NCBI GenBank assembly: GCA_015056885.1
Contig: SVFL01000008.1
Span: 1 to 64,000, forward strand
Direction of reading: 5' to 3'
DNA from: Lachnospiraceae bacterium
Lineage (GTDB): Bacteria > Bacillota > Clostridia > Lachnospirales > Lachnospiraceae
DNA length: 64,000 nucleotides
The notes under the pieces are model-generated. The model made no database searches and was not told where the DNA came from. It was given only the letters and a program-made list of their open reading frames with translations. Positions 1 to 9,075 of this stretch are shown here, in pieces. Position 1 is the stretch's first letter. Each line of letters opens with the position of its first letter. The position numbers were made by a program, and so were the translations under genes.

Positions 1-73
1 CTGATTACATTATTATATATTTTTCAAAAATCTACAATAGGTAGGTTTATTAAAGTTACCCATTTTTAGGAGT

Positions 74-95
74 AAAAGTTTTCTCAAAAACTTTT
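74..95 (-). terminator. weak A/T hairpin downstream of the lipoprotein gene
   Basis: Nine-base arms (AAAAGTTTT and AAAACTTTT) separated by four bases lie about 20 bases beyond the minus-strand stop codon of the lipoprotein gene. The stem is only A/T-rich with one G-C pair, so it is a weak terminator candidate. The remaining sequence to the window edge shows no gene. Confidence 0.25.
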
Positions 96-114
96 AAAAA
101 GTACTTGACTTACA

Positions 115-534
115 TTAGCAAGATTCTCTCCGTGTTTCCACGCCTTCTATCGCAAGCATACGAACTTCTTCATCTGTAATATAAGGAGCCTTACCCTCAC
201 AAACATCATCATAGGTACGTTCCTCAATATTCAAATTCAGTTCTTTCGCTCTCCTCATAAAGAAATCATATTCAATATAATTCAAACCTGTTTCATCTAT
301 CCCGATATAACAGACTTCCTCTCTCACTTTGTTATAATCGCCTAGCACAACATAGTCCAATGCCCGAAACTCCGTAGCATCTCCAATCTTTTCTTCAGAC
401 TCTATTTCATCTGAAAATTCTGCAGAAGGCTGTTGTATCACTGTAGCTTCTGATTCCAGTTCCGATTTGCATCCTGTCATTACTAAAGCCACCCCCATAA
501 TCAACACACTTATTAAACCTATTGTTTTTTTCAT
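115..534 (-). CDS. small secreted lipoprotein of unknown function
   Basis: This encodes 139 residues starting at the ATG preceded by GGGAGGAAAATAATT, a good ribosome binding site; a longer in-frame start exists nine codons upstream but has none. The N-terminus is a classic lipoprotein signal: two lysines, a hydrophobic stretch, then VMTGC as lipobox, so the mature protein should be lipid-anchored outside the membrane. After a Ser/Glu-rich linker comes a soluble domain of about 85 residues ending in cysteine. The stretch VLGDYNKV faintly recalls the first beta-strand of clostridial trigger-factor-like lipoproteins, but this is too weak for a functional name. It may be cargo of the accessory region. 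Confidence 0.7.
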   Translation of the reverse strand: MKKTIGLISVLIMGVALVMTGCKSELESEATVIQQPSAEFSDEIESEEKIGDATEFRALDYVVLGDYNKVREEVCYIGIDETGLNYIEYDFFMRRAKELNLNIEERTYDDVCEGKAPYITDEEVRMLAIEGVETRRESC

Positions 535-1149
535 AATTATTTTCCTCCCATTAGTATTCAAATTTATTTAACTGTTTTTAGAAATCCACTGCTTTGCCCA
601 AATAAACAATGCATTGAAAGATGCACCATTTTTAGAGGGTCATTTAACCTTACTCTCTGCTACTGTCACATCCAACTCATCTATCCCCAGCGTCACTTTT
701 ACATGATGCTTCGCCTCATGGAGTTTGGACAATAAGCATACCGTCTCCACATGCCATGAGTGGGCAATAAAGATACACATCCCATGACTTATTCGTTAAG
801 TCTGAGTTCTAAAATGATGCAACAGTCCCCTATTGGACCTGCAAAATTAAAGCATAATGCATCTCTCTGCACCTGCCATAGAAAAAGATTAGATTTGTTT
901 TTGAGATATAAGCCGGATTGGCTTATGTGTGATTTGTGTTCTGCTCTTTCCCTATGGTTCAATTTTCCCCTTTATAGCTTCTAGGATATTGTACCACCGA
1001 TTGTTTGTCTCGGAAATTACTTTCCTCTAAAAGTGGGCAGAAGAAAACCTCCAAATCTCTTAATTTTGGAAATTTTATTCTGACCACTATTAACTAACCC
1101 TTTTATCTAAATATCTTTAGTGAAACACATTTTCAATATTATATCAACC
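535..1149. other. gene-poor AT-rich stretch of the accessory region
   Basis: No intact gene is supported here. It contains a short minus-strand remnant (640-780, listed separately) and a small perfect hairpin (ATAAGCC / GGCTTAT at 908-926). A 74-codon plus-strand frame at 760-984 has no ribosome binding site, unusual composition and no recognisable motif, so it is not called. Confidence 0.5.
640..780 (-). pseudogene. remnant of an RlmD/RumA-like C-terminus
   Basis: Forty-six codons on the minus strand read through to TGA at 640-642. They contain HVETVCLLSKL followed by a charged tail with VTLGIDELDVTVAESK. The HVET segment corresponds to the last strand of RlmD-type methyltransferases; the intact rlmD at 7525-9075 has VHVESTVML at its C-terminus. 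The ELD-x-T-x-AESK tail resembles, from memory of the family, the C-terminal extension on RumA-labelled proteins scattered through Lachnospiraceae mobile elements. No catalytic domain precedes it, so it is read as a truncated remnant. The frame upstream of the ATG at 778-780 does not continue with recognisable protein. Confidence 0.45.
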
Positions 1150-1890
1150 TTAAAGATGATTTAGTAACCACTGCAAAATTTTTTTACGAAATAATTCTTT
1201 TTTATCATCCTCAAGAATAAACATCCCATTTTTCCTATCTTGATTCCGATAACGGAGTTTATCAATATTGCAAACTAAATAATTGAAAATATATTGCAAA
1301 TTCCAATGTATCTTGTATAATGTCGCAAAATCTTCATTTACTAAGGCATCAATCATTTGTTCTTCTGTTAAAACTATAACTTTCAGTTCCTTTTTTCCTT
1401 CATGATACGCATCATAAACTCGATGATTTCCATCAAGCACCACATATGCATTAAAAGGCTTGTAAAACGCAATAACAGGTGGTTTTTCAGTGCTACGGCT
1501 TTTGGCTTCATGCTCAAAACCACTCTTATCAATTATTTCATACAGTTCTTTCCATTCATTCTGCTTCGAAGAGTTTCTTCACAATTAATTATTTTCTCAA
1601 CCTTAGATATATCCCAAACTATTATAAAACTTCCGGTTCCAACAAAACATGTATACTCAAAATACTGTACACCTGGTTTTGCCATAAAATAGTTTTGAAA
1701 CTCTAAAATCTTCCTTCTATATAACATTAATTCATCCGTAATAAGTAGTGGTATTGTACATTTTTCTAATTTCAGATTTTGTGCCATTTTTTTCGGAACG
1801 GATTTCCTCAAGAAAAGAATCCATATTAATCTCATATTGTCTTTTATTATTCAGCCACTTTCCATAACCATATCTTGAAATATCTTGCAT
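1150..1890 (-). pseudogene. ParB/Srx-like domain protein interrupted by two compensating frameshifts
   Basis: Translation starts at an ATG (1888-1890) with GGAGG six bases upstream. It reads MQDISRYGYGKWLNNKRQYE and continues to about position 1790. There a run of seven A's on the coding strand coincides with a shift to another frame, which carries the middle part (TIPLLITDELMLYRRK ... WDISKVEKIINCEE). Between about 1536 and 1578 the reading returns to the first frame and continues as NEWKELYEIIDK ... VIAFYKPFNAYVVLDGNHRV to the stop at 1150. LDGNHR resembles the ParB/Srx superfamily signature. The two indels cancel, leaving both ends in one frame. It is the last gene of the defence-like cluster, 95 bases after the HNH gene. 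Either it is inactivated or the sequence has errors here. Confidence 0.6.
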
Positions 1891-1985
1891 TTCCATTCCT
1901 CCAAAACATATACACAGTGAATATTTCTACTCTCTATAATTCGTCTATTTTATTCACAAAAATCTTCTTTTATCCAAAACTTTAT

Positions 1986-2627
1986 CTAATCCGGACGATG
2001 AGACGATATTTCTTCAATTATTCTTTGGAGTTCCTCTGGCTGACGCATTGCCAATTGTTCCTTGGCTAACTCTAATATTTTTTCTCCATCTAGTCCAAAC
2101 ATCTTTATTGTTTCTTTAGCCTTATTTTTATGTTCTATATCAATACCCTTTTTTATAACGGGATACGCTCTCTTTTCTCCATTTGAAGATACCGGCACTT
2201 CAAAATAATCCATTGGATCATCTATGTATGGATGGACTATTTTAAAAGTCCATTTTCTATAATTGTGTTTTCCATTTTTAGAAAGTACCGTATCCTTTTG
2301 CCCTTTACATATTGTGGAATTGCAATTATGACAACTATATACTAAGTTGAATGGCAAAAATGTACATTCTGGGTGTAACGCCCTTCGCTTTCCACCTTTG
2401 GGCGCTATATGATCTATTTCTGGATTTCTTGATAGTAGTGGTAACTCACAATATGCACATTTCCCATCTTGAATTTCCATCAACTTTTTTTTCATTTTCT
2501 CTTTAAATTCTTTTACATTGGCATCATCTAAACTCCATGCATCAGCGACTTTATATTTTTCGTCACTCATCCTTTTTAACAGTTGTCTTGAAATGCCGTG
2601 CTGATATATTAATCTTCGTGTGTACAT
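1986..2627 (-). CDS. ptuB: HNH endonuclease, PtuB-like (Septu defence)
   Basis: This 213-residue protein carries an HNH nuclease fold. C57 and C60 (CAYC) and C99 and C102 (CHNC) form two CxxC pairs for a structural zinc. DH at 72-73, N94 and N103 match the H-N-N/H core of the beta-beta-alpha metal site. Its start lies inside the end of the upstream ATPase gene, with a 19-base overlap in another frame, which implies translational coupling. An overlapping AAA/SMC-like ATPase plus a small HNH protein is the architecture of Septu (PtuA/PtuB). In that system the ATPase restrains or activates the nuclease, which cleaves nucleic acid during phage infection. The system assignment comes from architecture; similar ATPase-HNH pairs occur in other defence loci. 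Confidence 0.75.
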   Translation of the reverse strand: MYTRRLIYQHGISRQLLKRMSDEKYKVADAWSLDDANVKEFKEKMKKKLMEIQDGKCAYCELPLLSRNPEIDHIAPKGGKRRALHPECTFLPFNLVYSCHNCNSTICKGQKDTVLSKNGKHNYRKWTFKIVHPYIDDPMDYFEVPVSSNGEKRAYPVIKKGIDIEHKNKAKETIKMFGLDGEKILELAKEQLAMRQPEELQRIIEEISSHRPD

Positions 2628-3949
2628 TTCTCCAATATCTCCGCAGACTGTTCTATTACTACATGTAATGGGTCTTCTGAATTGTAAACAAACTTTCGCA
2701 ATTTCTCTACTAACTTTTTAGCATCTTCGATTTTATTTGTGTTTTCTTCAATATCCTGAACTATTGTTAATAGTTCCCGCAAATCACTTTCAAAATAGTA
2801 ATTCCGTGCAGTTCTCAAACCAAACACATTATAAATTATATTTTCTGCAGACCACGCATACGTTTCGTATGGAAGGACTTCTACTATTGGATTTGCATCT
2901 ATCTCACTCTTCCTAAATGAAATAATAGATGATGTAGAACTTTCCAAATCTGACACCAAATAATGCGAATGACTTGCAAGTATAAAATGACATCCATCAT
3001 ACTTTTTAAATATTTTCTTTAACAATGATACATATTGAATTTGCCATTCTGGATGCAGACTTATTTCTGGTTCATCAATTAGAACAACTGATTTAGGTTC
3101 AATTGAACTCAATACGCCTGTAAATGCAAATATCATATGTTTTTCTCCAGAGCTACAATCTTCAAATTGTATACATCTCCCCTTTTTATAAAATGCAATA
3201 TTACATTTATTCTTTTCTTTATCATCCAAAGAACTAATTGCTTGTTCTAATTCTTCTAATACCTCCTCAATTTTTCCGTAATCCGGATTACTGCAATCTA
3301 TGCTGCACTTTCTAATGCAGCTACTTTTTTTCATTTTTGACTCATTATTACATTTCTCAGACTTAAATGAAATTTCAACCTTTGAATCAAAATGAAGTAC
3401 TGATAATACTTTCTCTAATTCCGTAATAGTGTGGTTCTTCATCATATGGACCACACTATAAAAAACATTTTGCATAACAGAACTTGTATATGTCGAATTA
3501 GTTGATTTTCTAACTCCTAAGTATTTATATATGCTACCTATATCCTCTCCTGGCTTCACAAAGCGAAACTTGTCATTAACCATAAATGACACTGCTAAAA
3601 CCTTTTTAGGCAATTCGATTTCATCAAGCACTATTTCCGTATCATTTTTCCAACAAAATATATCTCTCCCTGATTCTTTTTTTACACAATATTCATTGCC
3701 ATCAATAGAATATTTAACACAAAATTTGGTATATTTGAACTTGGGTTTTCTTTTGTATATTTGTGCTTTACTGATATAAATAAAGATATCTACAATTGTT
3801 TTTAACAAAAAGCTTTTGCCCGTTCCGTTTTCACCTAATATTAAAGTGGAAAATATTAGTCTTTCATCCACTTCTCTATCCCCTATGAAATCTATATTCA
3901 ATACTTCTTTTTCATCTTCTTTTACTTCTAAATACTTTAACAAAAACAT
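2609..3949 (-). CDS. ptuA: AAA/SMC-like ATPase, PtuA-like (Septu defence)
   Basis: The protein has 446 residues from the ATG preceded by TTGGAGGCATCG; an alternative start eight codons upstream lacks a site. Walker A is GENGTGKS (39-46). The ABC signature-like CSSGEKH is at 265-271, Walker B VVLIDEPEISLHPEWQ at 288-303 and the switch histidine ASHSH at 325-329. This is the DUF-type AAA_15/AAA_21 architecture of overcoming-lysogenization and PtuA-like defence ATPases. The long insert between Walker A and the signature contains an unusual cysteine cluster (C200, C211, C215, C220). It is third in the operon, 91 bases after the DUF1016 nuclease, and overlaps the HNH gene. Confidence 0.8.
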   Translation of the reverse strand: MFLLKYLEVKEDEKEVLNIDFIGDREVDERLIFSTLILGENGTGKSFLLKTIVDIFIYISKAQIYKRKPKFKYTKFCVKYSIDGNEYCVKKESGRDIFCWKNDTEIVLDEIELPKKVLAVSFMVNDKFRFVKPGEDIGSIYKYLGVRKSTNSTYTSSVMQNVFYSVVHMMKNHTITELEKVLSVLHFDSKVEISFKSEKCNNESKMKKSSCIRKCSIDCSNPDYGKIEEVLEELEQAISSLDDKEKNKCNIAFYKKGRCIQFEDCSSGEKHMIFAFTGVLSSIEPKSVVLIDEPEISLHPEWQIQYVSLLKKIFKKYDGCHFILASHSHYLVSDLESSTSSIISFRKSEIDANPIVEVLPYETYAWSAENIIYNVFGLRTARNYYFESDLRELLTIVQDIEENTNKIEDAKKLVEKLRKFVYNSEDPLHVVIEQSAEILEKCTHED

Positions 3950-4014
3950 CGATGCCTCCAATATTCTCCACACTTCATAGTTTCTACTACTTTATCCATT
4001 ATGTCTGTTTTACC

Positions 4015-4041
4015 AATTGGCTTACAGGCTGTAAGCCAATT
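4015..4041. repeat. perfect 27-bp palindrome at the 3' end of the DUF1016 gene
   Basis: Arms of 13 bases (AATTGGCTTACAG / CTGTAAGCCAATT) flank one central G. The palindrome reaches the first base of the minus-strand stop codon of the DUF1016 gene, in the 91-base gap before ptuA. There is no T-run, so it is not an ordinary terminator. It could act as a transcript-stabilising or attenuating hairpin or a protein-binding site. A near copy lies inside the same gene at 4774-4794. Confidence 0.8.
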
Positions 4042-5099
4042 TACTCAGATAATTCATTTTCAATTTCTTCCACTGTCGGCAGACTGCTTTTGAATTCTTC
4101 ACGAAGCACCTTTGTTAGTTCGTATGCTGCAATCCCAATTGGCTGTGAAATGTCATCCAGTGCATACTCCGCAACAACATCATCCTTGTCTTTACAAATA
4201 AGTAAGCCAATTGTCGGATTTTCTTGCTCCGATTTCATTTGCTTATTAACCGCAGTTACATAGAAATTCAATTTGCCTGCAAACTCCGGCTTAAACTTTT
4301 CTGTTTTTAATTCTACTACCACATAACAATGCAGCTGTACATGATAAAAAAGCAAGTCCATATAGAAGTCACTTTCTCCCACATGTAAATGAACCTGTCT
4401 ACCTAAATATGCAAATCCGGTACCCAATTCCAATAAAAATTGGGTTATCTGATTAATCAGCGCATCTTCCAATTCCTTTTCATCATACTCTTCTCTCAGG
4501 GTAAGGAAATCAAAGTTGTATGGGTCCTTTAATGTCTGCTGCGCTAAATCAGATTGTGCTTCTGGGAGCTTTAATTGGAAATTACTAACCACTTTTCCTT
4601 GTCGGTTATACAATCCACTATCTATCTGATGCTCCAATACATTCCTGCTCCAACCATTATCCATTGTCTTCTGTACATAAAACAACGCCTCTTGTATACT
4701 GTGGCATTTATACATGATACGTTGGTTATGTCCCCAAGGAATGCTTTTTACCATATTTTCAATAAGTTCCATTTGGCTTACAGCCTGTAAGCCATTTTCC
4801 TCAGAATTATAAAACTTGTACCAATAACGTATACTTTTCAAGTTTTGTACTGAAAATCCGGATATATCTGGAAATGTCTTTTGCAGATCTTTGCTCATTG
4901 TTGATAATAATGCATCACCCCATTTAGCATTTTTCTGCTTTTCAACAATGTCCCTTCCAATTTCCCAATATAATTCCAGCAATTCATAATTTATTTTAAC
5001 TGCTGCTTTTATTTGGCTCTGCTTTATCCGGTTTTTAATATTTTCTATCCATACTTTGTACTCATCATTCACAACAAAGCAAACCTCTCTGTTTTCCAC
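4041..5099 (-). CDS. DUF1016 (YhcG-type) PD-(D/E)XK nuclease
   Basis: The protein has 352 residues, starting at a GTG preceded by CAGGAGGAATAATA. The N-terminal half (roughly 10-170) is the DUF1016 N domain, with NYELLELYWEIGRDI and a PWGHN motif near the middle. The C-terminal half is a PD-(D/E)XK nuclease: D248 in DFYMD and the E-x-K pair E263/K265 in VVVELKTEKF. Family members are linked to restriction-like or anti-mobile-element roles and often lie in defence islands; the biochemical target is not established. It sits 61 bases after the AbiH-like gene and 91 before ptuA, on the same strand and likely in one transcript. Confidence 0.85.
   Translation of the reverse strand: MENREVCFVVNDEYKVWIENIKNRIKQSQIKAAVKINYELLELYWEIGRDIVEKQKNAKWGDALLSTMSKDLQKTFPDISGFSVQNLKSIRYWYKFYNSEENGLQAVSQMELIENMVKSIPWGHNQRIMYKCHSIQEALFYVQKTMDNGWSRNVLEHQIDSGLYNRQGKVVSNFQLKLPEAQSDLAQQTLKDPYNFDFLTLREEYDEKELEDALINQITQFLLELGTGFAYLGRQVHLHVGESDFYMDLLFYHVQLHCYVVVELKTEKFKPEFAGKLNFYVTAVNKQMKSEQENPTIGLLICKDKDDVVAEYALDDISQPIGIAAYELTKVLREEFKSSLPTVEEIENELSE
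4774..4794. repeat. second copy of the GGCTTACAG palindrome, inside the DUF1016 gene
   Basis: Ten-base perfect arms (TGGCTTACAG / CTGTAAGCCA) surround a central C. The sequence is the same as the core of the 4015-4041 palindrome apart from the central base. Here it encodes NGLQAVSQ in the nuclease. Confidence 0.8.
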
Positions 5100-5160
5100 T
5101 ATTATTCCTCCTGTTTGTATTTCTATCCACAACAAATGATTTATTCAACATTTCTCCGTT

Positions 5161-6075
5161 TTAAGATGACATAATGTCCAAGGAATCTTTAATAATGTGT
5201 GGACATTTTAAAATAGTCTCCCACTCCAAAGTTTCTGAATTGTGTTCTTTATCATATACATAAACTGTTACATGCTCCATTTTATTAATCTTTTCAAGTA
5301 AACTATCATCCCCATACGGAGACATTCCAAATATTTCTATTTCCTTTATTCCATCCAATTCTTGATATAACTGCTTTACCTCTCGAAGAAACAAATCATT
5401 TGCAGGATATAACTTATCAGATGGATATTGTCCTAATGCTATCATTTCATTTTTTTTAGAAAATTCAGGTGAGAATACAATGTCCCATGTATAAAGAGGT
5501 TGCAAATTATATGTATCACTCAATTTTGCAACAACTTTATCATAATTTTTGAACCCTCTATATCTCTCCGCACTGTACAAAATGAGTGGCTTTCCATTGT
5601 CATGAATTAATGAATTATCATATTGTCCATGCAAATGAATACATCTGTGAACATCATCCCAAAATTCCATATAGTTTAATGTAAAAACCTTGTCAAAGGA
5701 ATGTATTGAGGGTAATTTAAACTCATCGTATACCTTTCCTAATCTTTTTGATCCGTCATAAAAAATAGCAGATAAAGCTGTACAAACTATAGCATCAAGT
5801 AGTCTCATTCTTAAATTTATAGTTATACTTTTCGGTGTATTTTCTATTACATAAGAATGGACTTTCTCTGCAAGTGATTCTATACCCTGTTTATCATCCA
5901 TCGCAAACAACTTATCACATATCTCATCTGTAAAAGAAATACTAAAAAGTAGCTCATAAAATGGAGAAGAAATAACTAAATTCTTTTTGAATCTTGATGC
6001 AATCTCTGATACAAGCATTCCTTTAACACGTAAATGCATATTAATACCATTACCTAGCAGTAAATTGCGTTGCAT
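5161..6075 (-). CDS. AbiH / SIR2-like abortive-infection protein
   Basis: The protein has 304 residues with a strong site (CAGGAGGAGCAAT) before its ATG. An N-terminal nucleotide-binding-like loop LLLGNGINM (5-13) is followed by TLNYMEFWDD (about 132-141), HLHG (147-150) and a C-terminal IEIFGMSPYGDD (about 246-257). This order (GNG, TxNY, HLHG, IFG-S/x-GDD) is shared by AbiH-family abortive infection proteins and SIR2-like NAD-consuming defence proteins, which have related Rossmann folds. I cannot separate the two by eye: GNG rather than GAG favours AbiH. It is the first gene of the defence-like operon, directly behind a promoter with a LexA-type operator. A role as phage sensor or suicide effector is inferred. 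Confidence 0.75.
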   Translation of the reverse strand: MQRNLLLGNGINMHLRVKGMLVSEIASRFKKNLVISSPFYELLFSISFTDEICDKLFAMDDKQGIESLAEKVHSYVIENTPKSITINLRMRLLDAIVCTALSAIFYDGSKRLGKVYDEFKLPSIHSFDKVFTLNYMEFWDDVHRCIHLHGQYDNSLIHDNGKPLILYSAERYRGFKNYDKVVAKLSDTYNLQPLYTWDIVFSPEFSKKNEMIALGQYPSDKLYPANDLFLREVKQLYQELDGIKEIEIFGMSPYGDDSLLEKINKMEHVTVYVYDKEHNSETLEWETILKCPHIIKDSLDIMSS

Positions 6076-6144
6076 ATTGCTCCTCCTGTTCTAAAACTAA
6101 TCAAAACTTTGTTATATTTTATGTTACTAACAGACTACAAAATA

Positions 6145-6173
6145 ATTATACACTATTTCTTAATTCAGAACAA
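6145..6173 (-). promoter_or_regulatory. sigma-A type promoter of the defence-like operon
   Basis: On the minus strand TTGTTC (-35, 6168-6173) and TATAAT (-10, 6145-6150) are separated by 17 bases. They lie about 70-98 bases upstream of the AbiH-like start codon and just downstream of the recombinase gene. No comparably good promoter is seen in the short gaps further down the operon. Confidence 0.65.
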
Positions 6174-6179
6174 GTGTTC
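6168..6179. promoter_or_regulatory. LexA/DinR (SOS) box overlapping the -35 element
   Basis: GAACAAGTGTTC is a perfect inverted repeat and matches the core of the Gram-positive SOS consensus CGAACRNRYGTTYG; only the outermost C and G differ. It covers the whole -35 hexamer of the AbiH promoter, the usual position for a LexA operator. Repression by LexA with release after DNA damage is inferred. Confidence 0.6.
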
Positions 6180-6184
6180 CCTGT

Positions 6185-7408
6185 CTAAAAATATAGGATT
6201 TTGATTTCTGCGTTTTTTACCACCAAAACTCTCTCTACCTTCTTCCTTACAACCTCTTCATCGTACTCCCCTCCGCAGACTCTCTTTCCAAGTTCTTCTT
6301 TAATCCGCTCCTCTCCGATAGTTGGCGATTCTTTGCATGCATCTCTGCCTTTTTCCATTCGCGTAGCACATCGATAAACAACTTTCTCTCTTTCTGTCCG
6401 CCTACGAAAGGTTGCTCCACACTCTTCGCATTCCAGAATATTACCTAAAACGTTATTAGGATTATATTTTTTACTTTTCTTTACAATTATCCCATCAGAA
6501 TCTATAGTAATATTTTTCCTACGATTCATCTCACAGGCAACTTCCAGAAACTTCTCTTTTGAGATAATTCCTTCATGACTGTCATGTACATAATATCTTG
6601 CCTTTTGTCCTACATTCTTTGATTTTTTTCCTGATAAATAGTCTTCTGTAAAATATTTTTGGAGCATACTGTCTCCCATATATTTTTCATTACAGAGCAT
6701 CTCCTGTATAACTGACTTATACCATGTATCACTTCCGGATGCAGTCTTTATCCCGGCTTCTTCCAGCTTATGTTTTATCTGCCCCAACGACATTCCCTGC
6801 AAATACCAATCAAAAATATTTCTTACAACCTCTGCCTGTTGCTCGTTTATAACAAGCTCTCCATCAATGACATCATATCCGTAAAAATACTTATAATTGT
6901 TTAGCGTCACTCCCTGTTCAAACCTACTTTTAAACCCCCATTGAATATTTTCGCTCATGTTTCTAATCTCCTCCTGTGCAAGCATTGTATATATTGTTAT
7001 CGCTAATTCAATATTTCTATCTGTACTTCTGATGTTTTCTTTTTCAAACCATATGGTTACTCCTTTTTCTTTCAAAACATGAACTGTTTGCAACATATCT
7101 ACTGTATTGCCGGAAAATCTGCTGATTGATTTGGTAATAATACAATCAATCTGTCCGTTTAAAGCCATTTGAATCATACTTTGAAATTGTGGTCGTTTTG
7201 CAATCCTACTCCTGCTGCCATAGTCAGCGTAAACACCCACAAATATCCAGTTGGGTTGTGCTTTAATATAGTTTTCGTAATGCATTTTTTGCAGTTCCAT
7301 ACTACTTTTTTGACTTTCATATTTTGTGCTGACACGACAGTATGCTGCTACACGCAATTTTTTCGCATAATCTTTCTTAGGTATCTCGATTTTTCTAATT
7401 TTTTTCAT
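6185..7408 (-). CDS. large serine recombinase
   Basis: The 407-residue protein has an N-terminal resolvase domain with the catalytic serine S27 in AYCRVST and helix motifs such as DCIITKSISRFSGN and IWFEKENI. A central Recombinase domain (about 180-285) and a zinc-ribbon with C327, C330, C347 and C358 follow. The C-terminal tail after the ribbon is short (about 50 residues) compared with the coiled-coil region of full-length phage or Tn4451-type integrases, so directionality control may differ. It lies between the defence-like operon and the terminator of rlmD, suggesting this is the end of an integrated element. I could not identify attachment sites or a directionality factor. Confidence 0.9.
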   Translation of the reverse strand: MKKIRKIEIPKKDYAKKLRVAAYCRVSTKYESQKSSMELQKMHYENYIKAQPNWIFVGVYADYGSRSRIAKRPQFQSMIQMALNGQIDCIITKSISRFSGNTVDMLQTVHVLKEKGVTIWFEKENIRSTDRNIELAITIYTMLAQEEIRNMSENIQWGFKSRFEQGVTLNNYKYFYGYDVIDGELVINEQQAEVVRNIFDWYLQGMSLGQIKHKLEEAGIKTASGSDTWYKSVIQEMLCNEKYMGDSMLQKYFTEDYLSGKKSKNVGQKARYYVHDSHEGIISKEKFLEVACEMNRRKNITIDSDGIIVKKSKKYNPNNVLGNILECEECGATFRRRTEREKVVYRCATRMEKGRDACKESPTIGEERIKEELGKRVCGGEYDEEVVRKKVERVLVVKNAEIKILYF

Positions 7409-7440
7409 TTTGTTTTTACCTTGGTTCTTAAAATGCTATT

Positions 7441-7500
7441 TAACAAAAAAAGACATTAACGTGTTTATCACCCAACTCTAATAGCACGTTAACGTCTTTT
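7441..7500 (-). terminator. rho-independent terminator of the rlmD operon
   Basis: On the minus strand a 16-base arm (AAAAGACGTTAACGTG) pairs with CACGTTAATGTCTTTT, one mismatch, across a 21-base loop and runs into TTTTTTT. It starts about 25 bases after the rlmD stop and separates the core operon from the recombinase gene. Confidence 0.85.
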
Positions 7501-7524
7501 AAATGCTTTCGTTTTACCCCTTCT

Positions 7525-9075
7525 TTAATGTGCCGGATCAGCACCTCTTCTTTGCAACATGACCGTACTTTCCACATGCACCGTCATCCCGAACATATCC
7601 ACCCCTCTTACTCTCTTCACTTCATATCCGCCCTCGCACAGCACTTTCAAATCTCTCGCCAGGGTTGCGGAATCGCAGCTTACATACACAATTCTCTCCG
7701 GCTGCATCTTTAGCATGGTTTCCAAGCAAGCGGTATCGCAGCCTTTTCTGGGCGGGTCTACAACGATTACGTCCGGATGAAGCATATCTGCATTTTGTGC
7801 ATTCTCTGTACTTGCTTTTTCGTAAAATTCCGGCAACACTTCCTCTGCCTTACCTACATAAAACTCGGCATTGGCAATACCGTTTCGCAGAGCATTTTTC
7901 TTGGCATCTTCGATGGCTTGGGGAATAATCTCTACACCGCAGACTTTGCCGGCGTTGCCTGCCAGAAAGAGCGATATAGTACCGATACCGCAGTAGAGGT
8001 CCCAAACGGTCTCTTTGCCCGTGAGTCCGGCATATTCAAGAGCCAGACTGTAGAGTTTCTCGGTTTGAACGGGGTTCACCTGATAAAAGGACAGAGGTGA
8101 AATCTTAAAGGTCAGTTCCTGGCCGGTAAGAGGGTAGCCCTCTTTGGTCATATCGCGCACGTGAATGGTGTCGGAAATGGTGGGCTCGCCCCAGATATTA
8201 TGGATTTCTTTGCCCATGATGACATTGGTGCGCTCGGTGTTAACGCTGACGGAAATGCTGGTCATGCCGGGAACGGCAGCCAGAGCGTCGACAAGCTTAT
8301 CCTGAGTGGGCAGGAAGCGCATAGCTTGTACAGTACCTTCGGTGTTGGATTTTGCCCCTGCAGTTGCTGAGGAACCCTGTGTCTTCGGTGCTGTTCCCTT
8401 TTCCCCTTTATAATTTATCACCAGACACACCATTATTTCTCCGCTGGTGAAGCCTTTGCGAATCAGTATATGACGAATAAGCCCCTGCCCGGTAGTCTCG
8501 TCATAGGCAGACACTTTATTTTCTTTCATGTAATCTAAGATAATCTGTAAAATAGTCTCATTTTCTGTTACGCCTAATCCGCAGCTGATATTGGGGATAA
8601 TGCTGTGGGTGCGGCCGGCGTAGAACCCGGCAATGGGATTGCCTTCCTTGTCGGTTCCTACGGGGTATTGGGCTTTGTTGCGGTAATGAAGGGGATTCTC
8701 CATTCCTACGATGGGCTCCATAATGTTATCAATAAAGCTTTCTTCAAATCCGCCGATGCGAATGAGGTTGTTGCGGATTTTGCGATGTTTAAAAGCAAGT
8801 TGCTGTTCATAAGAGAGCACCTGCAGTTGGCAGCCACCACATTGTCTGTAGGTGGGACATGTGGGCTCTACACGGTAAGGGGAAGGAGTAATTAACTTCT
8901 CCAGACGGGCGTAGGCATAAGATTTCTTGGCTTTCATAATCTTTACTTCCGCCACATCGCCGATAACGGTGTCCTTAACAAACAAGGTGAAGCCATCCAC
9001 CTTGCCGATTCCTTCACCTTCGCTACTCATATCCTCTATTGTTACTGTAAGATAGTCATTTTTCTTAAATTCCAT
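7525..9075 (-). CDS. rlmD: 23S rRNA (uracil-C5)-methyltransferase RlmD/RlmCD
   Basis: The 516-residue protein begins with a TRAM RNA-binding domain (1-60). It has the four-cysteine iron-sulfur set C73, C79, C82 (CPTYRQCGGC) and C165, the SAM loop DLYCGIGTISLF, the DPPRKGC motif and catalytic C467 in YVSCD. The family methylates C5 of uracil in 23S rRNA; in Firmicutes one enzyme (RlmCD) often modifies both U747 and U1939, so substrate range is uncertain. A low-complexity insert at about 223-250 (Gly/Ser/Thr/Ala-rich) is absent from typical members and interrupts the central domain without disturbing the motifs. It is the last gene of a five-gene operon. Confidence 0.95.
   Translation of the reverse strand: MEFKKNDYLTVTIEDMSSEGEGIGKVDGFTLFVKDTVIGDVAEVKIMKAKKSYAYARLEKLITPSPYRVEPTCPTYRQCGGCQLQVLSYEQQLAFKHRKIRNNLIRIGGFEESFIDNIMEPIVGMENPLHYRNKAQYPVGTDKEGNPIAGFYAGRTHSIIPNISCGLGVTENETILQIILDYMKENKVSAYDETTGQGLIRHILIRKGFTSGEIMVCLVINYKGEKGTAPKTQGSSATAGAKSNTEGTVQAMRFLPTQDKLVDALAAVPGMTSISVSVNTERTNVIMGKEIHNIWGEPTISDTIHVRDMTKEGYPLTGQELTFKISPLSFYQVNPVQTEKLYSLALEYAGLTGKETVWDLYCGIGTISLFLAGNAGKVCGVEIIPQAIEDAKKNALRNGIANAEFYVGKAEEVLPEFYEKASTENAQNADMLHPDVIVVDPPRKGCDTACLETMLKMQPERIVYVSCDSATLARDLKVLCEGGYEVKRVRGVDMFGMTVHVESTVMLQRRGADPAH

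Follow-up and report, generated by a model that had tools for sequence, protein, structure and literature searches.

A predicted LexA operator on the promoter of a SIR2-like/YhcG/Septu gene cluster in a Lachnospiraceae genome

A predicted SOS box, very probably a real LexA operator, was found on the putative promoter of a four-gene cluster in a Lachnospiraceae bacterium that is probably gut-dwelling. Judged from the sequence, the likely antiviral genes of this cluster appear to be kept behind the same DNA-damage switch as the repair genes. The window, i.e. the whole stretch of 64,000 nt that was analysed, starts at the first base of its contig. Its relevant features are collected in Table 1.

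Table 1. Positions of the predicted operator, the putative promoter and the neighbouring genes in the window
Feature	Position	Strand	Remarks
PtuB HNH nuclease (Septu)	1986..2627	-	87.8 bits; overlaps ptuA by 19 bp
PtuA ATPase (Septu)	2609..3973	-	362.6 bits; 67 bp after yhcG, inverted repeat in the gap
YhcG/DUF1016 PDDEXK nuclease-domain protein (PADLOC PDC-S02)	4041..5135	-	25 bp after the first gene
First gene, 304 aa	5161..6075	-	SIR2-like model; AGGAGG just before the ATG
Putative -10 hexamer TATAAT	6145..6150	-	6/6 match; exactly 17 nt from the -35
Putative -35 hexamer TTGTTC	6168..6173	-	entirely within the box, as its second half; 3/6 match to TTGACA
LexA-type operator (SOS box), predicted	6168..6179	-	minus-strand letters GAACACTTGTTC; 17.89 bits
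Serine recombinase (Resolvase/Recombinase/zinc ribbon)	6185..7408	-	stop codon and box 5 bp apart
rlmD (rumA) 23S rRNA methyltransferase	7525..9075	-	chromosomal flank; TIGR00479, 421 bits

Predicted operator and putative promoter

The sequence GAACAAGTGTTC at 6168–6179 fits GAACRNRYGTTC and is a perfect GAACN4GTTC repeat, as a previous reading made from the sequence alone (the sequence-only reading) had stated. Its spacer fits RNRY, like those of 49 of the 50 boxes from recA and lexA loci of congeners. The same reading had placed the box over the whole -35 hexamer of a TTGTTC-17-TATAAT promoter, and this held. On the minus strand, the recombinase stop codon (6187–6185) is followed by 5 bp, the box (6179–6168, with the -35 at 6173–6168), TATAAT (6150–6145), the leader and the ATG at 6075. 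The distance from the -10 to the ATG is 69 bp, and AGGAGG stands in the leader immediately 5' of the ATG.

The box is intergenic and overlaps the putative promoter, as expected of an operator of the LexA regulon. With a weak -35 and a perfect -10, the promoter assignment is good but not certain. A generic promoter scan of 5100–7600, which required at least 4/6 matches per hexamer, did not list this promoter because its -35 reaches only 3/6. The box was also considered as a terminator of the recombinase gene. This was ruled out, as there were no terminator-like sites in 5100–7600.

Genes of the cluster

The sequence-only reading had described an AbiH/DUF1016/PtuAB cluster. Profiles support DUF1016/YhcG, PtuA and PtuB. 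The AbiH label for the first gene was rejected, as its product matched no profile in Pfam (E up to 10), NCBIfam (0.001) or PADLOC (0.1), libraries that presumably include an AbiH model. A profile of this product compared with solved structures likewise gave no matches at E 1. The model of the protein looks SIR2-like. N134 and H149 are invariant among 38 aligned proteins and may correspond to the SIR2 catalytic Asn/His pair. With such a fold, the product would probably consume NAD. At 1e-5, the first gene had no matches in plasmids or phages. In viral contigs, one relative (27% identity) was found, and the extended box pattern was absent.

The YhcG protein carries DUF1016_N (142.7 bits) and YhcG_C (216.6 bits). 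A PtuA ATPase and a PtuB HNH protein are encoded side by side, which is the composition of Septu type I. The NCBIfam cut-offs for PtuA/PtuB (retron Ec78) were not reached, and that of TIGR02646 was. Compared with the known Septu type I (PtuAB) and YhcG/PDC-S02 systems, whose profiles match, the window set adds a LexA-type box and a SIR2-like first gene. Among the ORFs that were tested in 115–7408, no local regulator was recognised.

A 37-nt palindromic element occurs twice, at 4013–4049 and 4769–4805 (89% identical; 0 in 100 shuffles). One copy is inside yhcG and the other just past its end.

Site counts and matrix scores

The bare motif is unremarkable, as 0.70 perfect sites were expected in the window and at least one occurred in 48 of 100 shuffles. 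One-mismatch sites in the window showed no excess (16 vs. 19.35 expected), and neither did the count of GAACRNRYGTTC alone in this genome (4+2 strand matches vs. 3+5 for the control). The weight of the window box comes from its rank and position instead. The whole assembly (3,203,278 bases, 85.8% complete) contains 12 perfect GAACN4GTTC sites and 59 sites of the reversed pattern. Perfect sites are three-fold rarer in the genome than in a Markov-1 model (12 vs. ~36 per 3.2 Mb; 72 in 6.4 Mb).

The scoring matrix was made from all 50 perfect boxes of congener loci, 29 from 30 recA loci and 21 from 30 lexA loci. These loci were drawn from 126 genomes with recA and 107 with lexA, and two recA and nine lexA loci were boxless. 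One training box (spacer AATG, L090) breaks RNRY and may be inside a coding stretch. The training boxes span 12.5–25.1 bits, and the window site falls within this recA/lexA range.

The expectation that the site would rank with those of recA, lexA and repair genes was borne out. Among the 12 perfect sites of the genome, recA scored highest (20.17 bits), followed by the window site (17.89), the rSAM-UDG repair pair (17.86) and lexA/yneA (17.19); uvrB had 12.83 bits. Six further sites are inside ORFs and reach 2.8 to 14.1 bits, none of them 15. Imperfect boxes were scored within 128,007 bases of this genome. The remaining perfect site (G000:C129:50965-50976) lies 40 bp before scpA; it has a low score of 9.0 bits and is probably due to chance.

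Markov-1 random sequence contained five perfect sites scoring 17 bits or more in 6.4 Mb, i.e. ~2.5 per genome length, so the score alone cannot exclude chance. Taken together, the score, the intergenic place and the promoter overlap make chance unlikely.

The SOS regulon in the genome and the genus

A LexA homologue, on which the sequence-only reading depended, is encoded in the genome (TIGR00498, 237.6 bits), and lexA, recA, uvrB and the rSAM-UDG repair gene all have perfect boxes there. The 12-mer of the window is also the box at recA of G517 (L109), at lexA/yneA of G408 (L209) and at yneA of G401 (L190), and it occurs 159 bp before lexA of G410. At uvrB of this genome, box and -35 adjoin, and the promoter there likewise has TATAAT. 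The perfect boxes of recA and yneA lie downstream of the best -10 and not on the -35. Hence, the boxes of this genome do not share one layout.

We fetched 50 regions, 47 around RNRY sites among the matches listed in eleven congeners and three around relatives of the first gene. This set left out G398, G399 and G404, where sites are numerous, as well as ten recA/lexA places in the remaining genomes. Among the matches listed, the regions held 55 perfect sites, 32 of them at 17 bits or more. Gene classes were assigned by hand. Of the 32 strong sites, 15 are at core SOS or repair genes, namely rSAM-UDG, uvrB, DNA polymerase IV/V, yneA, lexA and recA. These genomes partly overlap the training set, and 11 of the 15 core matches (rSAM-UDG, uvrB, polymerase) are outside it. 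The other strong sites are at sigma-like genes (six, in five loci) and histidine kinases (three), inside ORFs (three), at an unclear place (two) and, with one each, at TerB, SocA/Panacea and a retron/Schlafen locus. Hence, strong boxes close to gene starts are in most cases meaningful in this genus.

Relatives of the first gene

The closest relatives of the first gene encode proteins that are 98% and 88% identical. None of the 21 scanned loci, whose relatives are at most 53% identical, has a perfect box in the 400 bp before the first-gene match. The scan took 21 of 23 loci, leaving out L043 and L045, where the N-terminus is missing. For L044 (match from residue 62) and a few others (from residues 2–3), the stretch that was scanned deviates from the region before the start codon. 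One-mismatch sites were present upstream of the relatives in L030 and L031. LexA-type control of the first gene is therefore lineage-specific at best. The four-gene set itself seems to be a local assembly, since among the loci compared YhcG is near a first-gene relative only in L028 and PtuAB is near none.

All 23 loci together (252,993 bases) contain two perfect sites, one in L044 (9.0 bits) and one in L033 of GAM79 (17.1 bits). The latter lies between a type VI retron reverse transcriptase (1986–3575; PADLOC RT_VI, 230 bits) and an operon of a Schlafen-group helicase, a MazG-like protein, a first-gene relative (39%) and an AbiJ_NTD4 protein. It is 8 bp upstream of a TTGATT-17-TATAAT promoter directed at the retron. 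In the direction of the Schlafen/AbiJ operon, there is no good promoter behind the box, and Rfam gave no match in the retron region. As ~0.2 chance sites are expected in 252,993 bases, the 17.1-bit box is a lead, not proof.

The recombinase and a possible insertion hotspot

Judged by its position, the defence cluster is cargo behind the serine recombinase beside rlmD. Matches to the recombinase at 1e-60 were found in 22 genomes of the genus, including its own, and the box check covered G022 and G445. The matches in the other 20 genomes are 36–48% identical or are the window itself. A family search at 1e-100 returned only the recombinase of the window and that of G022 (2 of 397). DNA of the recombinase region had no match in plasmids.

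We considered a box that travels with the recombinase and rejected this, as neither of the two orthologues at 61–63% identity (G022 and G445) is followed by a perfect box. In G022, a one-mismatch site lies ~490 bp beyond the orthologue, and the contig of G445 stops ~350 bp past the match. The DNA downstream of the recombinase junction differs in both genomes.

Downstream of rlmD there seems to be an insertion hotspot (window 6185–9075; L080; L029). It holds a serine recombinase in the window and in G445 and a first-gene relative in L029.

Proposed mechanism and alternative explanations

We consider it likely that host LexA places the cluster, or at any rate its first two genes, under SOS induction. 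Host LexA on the -35 would keep the promoter off in undamaged cells. RecA filaments on single-stranded DNA would lead to self-cleavage of LexA, and the promoter would open. The SIR2-like protein and the YhcG nuclease-domain protein would then be made. LexA control possibly reaches ptuAB as well, with PtuA and PtuB made by read-through. In this way, the cluster would borrow the SOS switch of the host, a regulator of its own not having been recognised. We infer LexA binding, repression, induction, the extent of the operon, the NADase activity and the antiphage benefit from sequence.

An operator that is real but limited to one or two genes at the start of the cluster, with ptuA and ptuB under their own promoter, is unlikely; it is compatible with SOS induction by host LexA as proposed here, which itself claims only the first two genes. 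Septu usually stands alone, PtuAB was near no compared relative of the first gene, and the 67-bp gap between yhcG and ptuA contains an inverted repeat with 11-bp arms. However, no T run follows this repeat on the coding strand (by eye), which sets it apart from a standard terminator, and the four genes follow each other closely in one direction. It is very unlikely that the box is merely a 12-bp near-palindrome which by chance has been on the promoter since the cargo landed behind the recombinase. The numbers of perfect sites expected in the window (0.70) and, at 17 bits or more, per genome length (~2.5 under Markov-1) speak for chance, as does the absence of the box in the scanned relatives. 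Moreover, the box follows the recombinase gene at a distance of 5 bp and lies at the junction with differing downstream DNA in G022 and G445. Against this stand the three-fold scarcity of perfect sites in the genome (12 vs. ~36) and the identity of the three further perfect sites that reach 17 bits, which belong to recA, lexA and a repair gene. Assuming that ~2–6% of the genome is promoter, only 0.05–0.15 random sites would be at promoters.

We give a similarly low or slightly lower probability to the box being a relic, or part of an SOS control that belongs to the mobile element (timing of excision), and not selected for defence. Mobile elements are commonly under SOS control, and the recombinase is directly upstream of the box. 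Several strong boxes of congeners are at sigma-like genes, whose nature is unclear and which are possibly mobile. However, the recombinase gene is directed at the box and stops short of it; the promoter at the box therefore cannot transcribe this gene, and the orthologues in G022 and G445 have no perfect box behind them.

If SOS induction by host LexA is true, a killing-type defence would be held back until RecA filaments signal DNA damage. Abortive defence would be tied to phage- or restriction-made breaks without a local sensor, and DNA-damaging drugs would switch on antiviral toxicity in commensal bacteria. The cluster would also be a simple test case for limiting the cost of defence.

Comparison with known systems

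Our literature search, which covered papers outside subscription, found no LexA operator named on a SIR2-like/YhcG/Septu cluster. SymE, a known case of LexA repression, is presumably located among restriction genes. E. coli SymE is a toxin-like gene that is SOS-induced and repressed by LexA (PMC1891008). SymE–SymR differs from the window in its proteins and in the additional control by antisense RNA and Lon (PMC1891008).

DNA-damage control of defence is already known. The sequence-only reading had held that defence genes are normally constitutive or controlled by WYL or BrxR-type regulators. This is too narrow because CapH/CapP (PMC12255303) and CapK/CapS (PMC13373217) control CBASS and other immune operons, which DNA damage switches on. 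Both are dedicated local regulators, whereas the window would rely on host LexA, with no local regulator recognised. The main text of PMC13373217 contains no occurrence of 'LexA' or 'SOS'. AbpAB is described as a defence that answers host DNA damage, with RecA and LexA reported to be uninvolved (PMC10732053). There, the proteins are activated, in contrast to the transcriptional switch proposed for the window.

The regulon of Firmicutes LexA/DinR, as presented in PMC4234289, has the same GAACN4GTTC operator type at recA, lexA and uvrB. According to this source, LexA binding in C. difficile extended to 16 of the 20 fragments tested, several of them at non-repair genes, and some sites are lineage-specific. 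Its Table 1 gives no SIR2/YhcG/Septu cluster by product name, unlike the window.

Boxes at other genes of the genus

A broader reading is that host LexA is a direct licence for several immunity-type modules in the genus, replacing local regulators. The modules would be the SIR2-like/YhcG/Septu cluster of the window, the GAM79 type VI retron by the Schlafen-helicase/AbiJ operon and, in congeners, a SocA/Panacea antitoxin gene and a C5 DNA methyltransferase. A DNA-damage signal of the whole cell would then gate defence output. We regard this as tentative and rather doubtful.

Tandem SOS boxes ~33 bp apart stand before a 609-aa gene in L202 (G406; 1145–6100) and L219 (G410; 44–4856). Its product has a sigma-like N-terminus (read by eye), with a weak GmrSD_N match in L202. 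There, the gene is divergent from one for a 905-aa protein matching the PF05183 RNA-dependent RNA polymerase (52.5 bits), and a similar-looking 878-aa partner is beside the 609-aa-type gene of L219. Similar sigma-like genes with boxes occur in L186, L204 and L215. Three genomes (L184, L191 and L203) have HisKA_3 histidine kinases with the fully symmetric box GAACATATGTTC ~8–14 bp before the start. SOS boxes precede a SocA/Panacea antitoxin gene (L217, 2382–2994; 21.7 bits), a TerB_N/TerB_C gene (L197, 1105–3030; 19.9) and a C5 DNA methyltransferase gene (L205, 3078–4232; 15.0).
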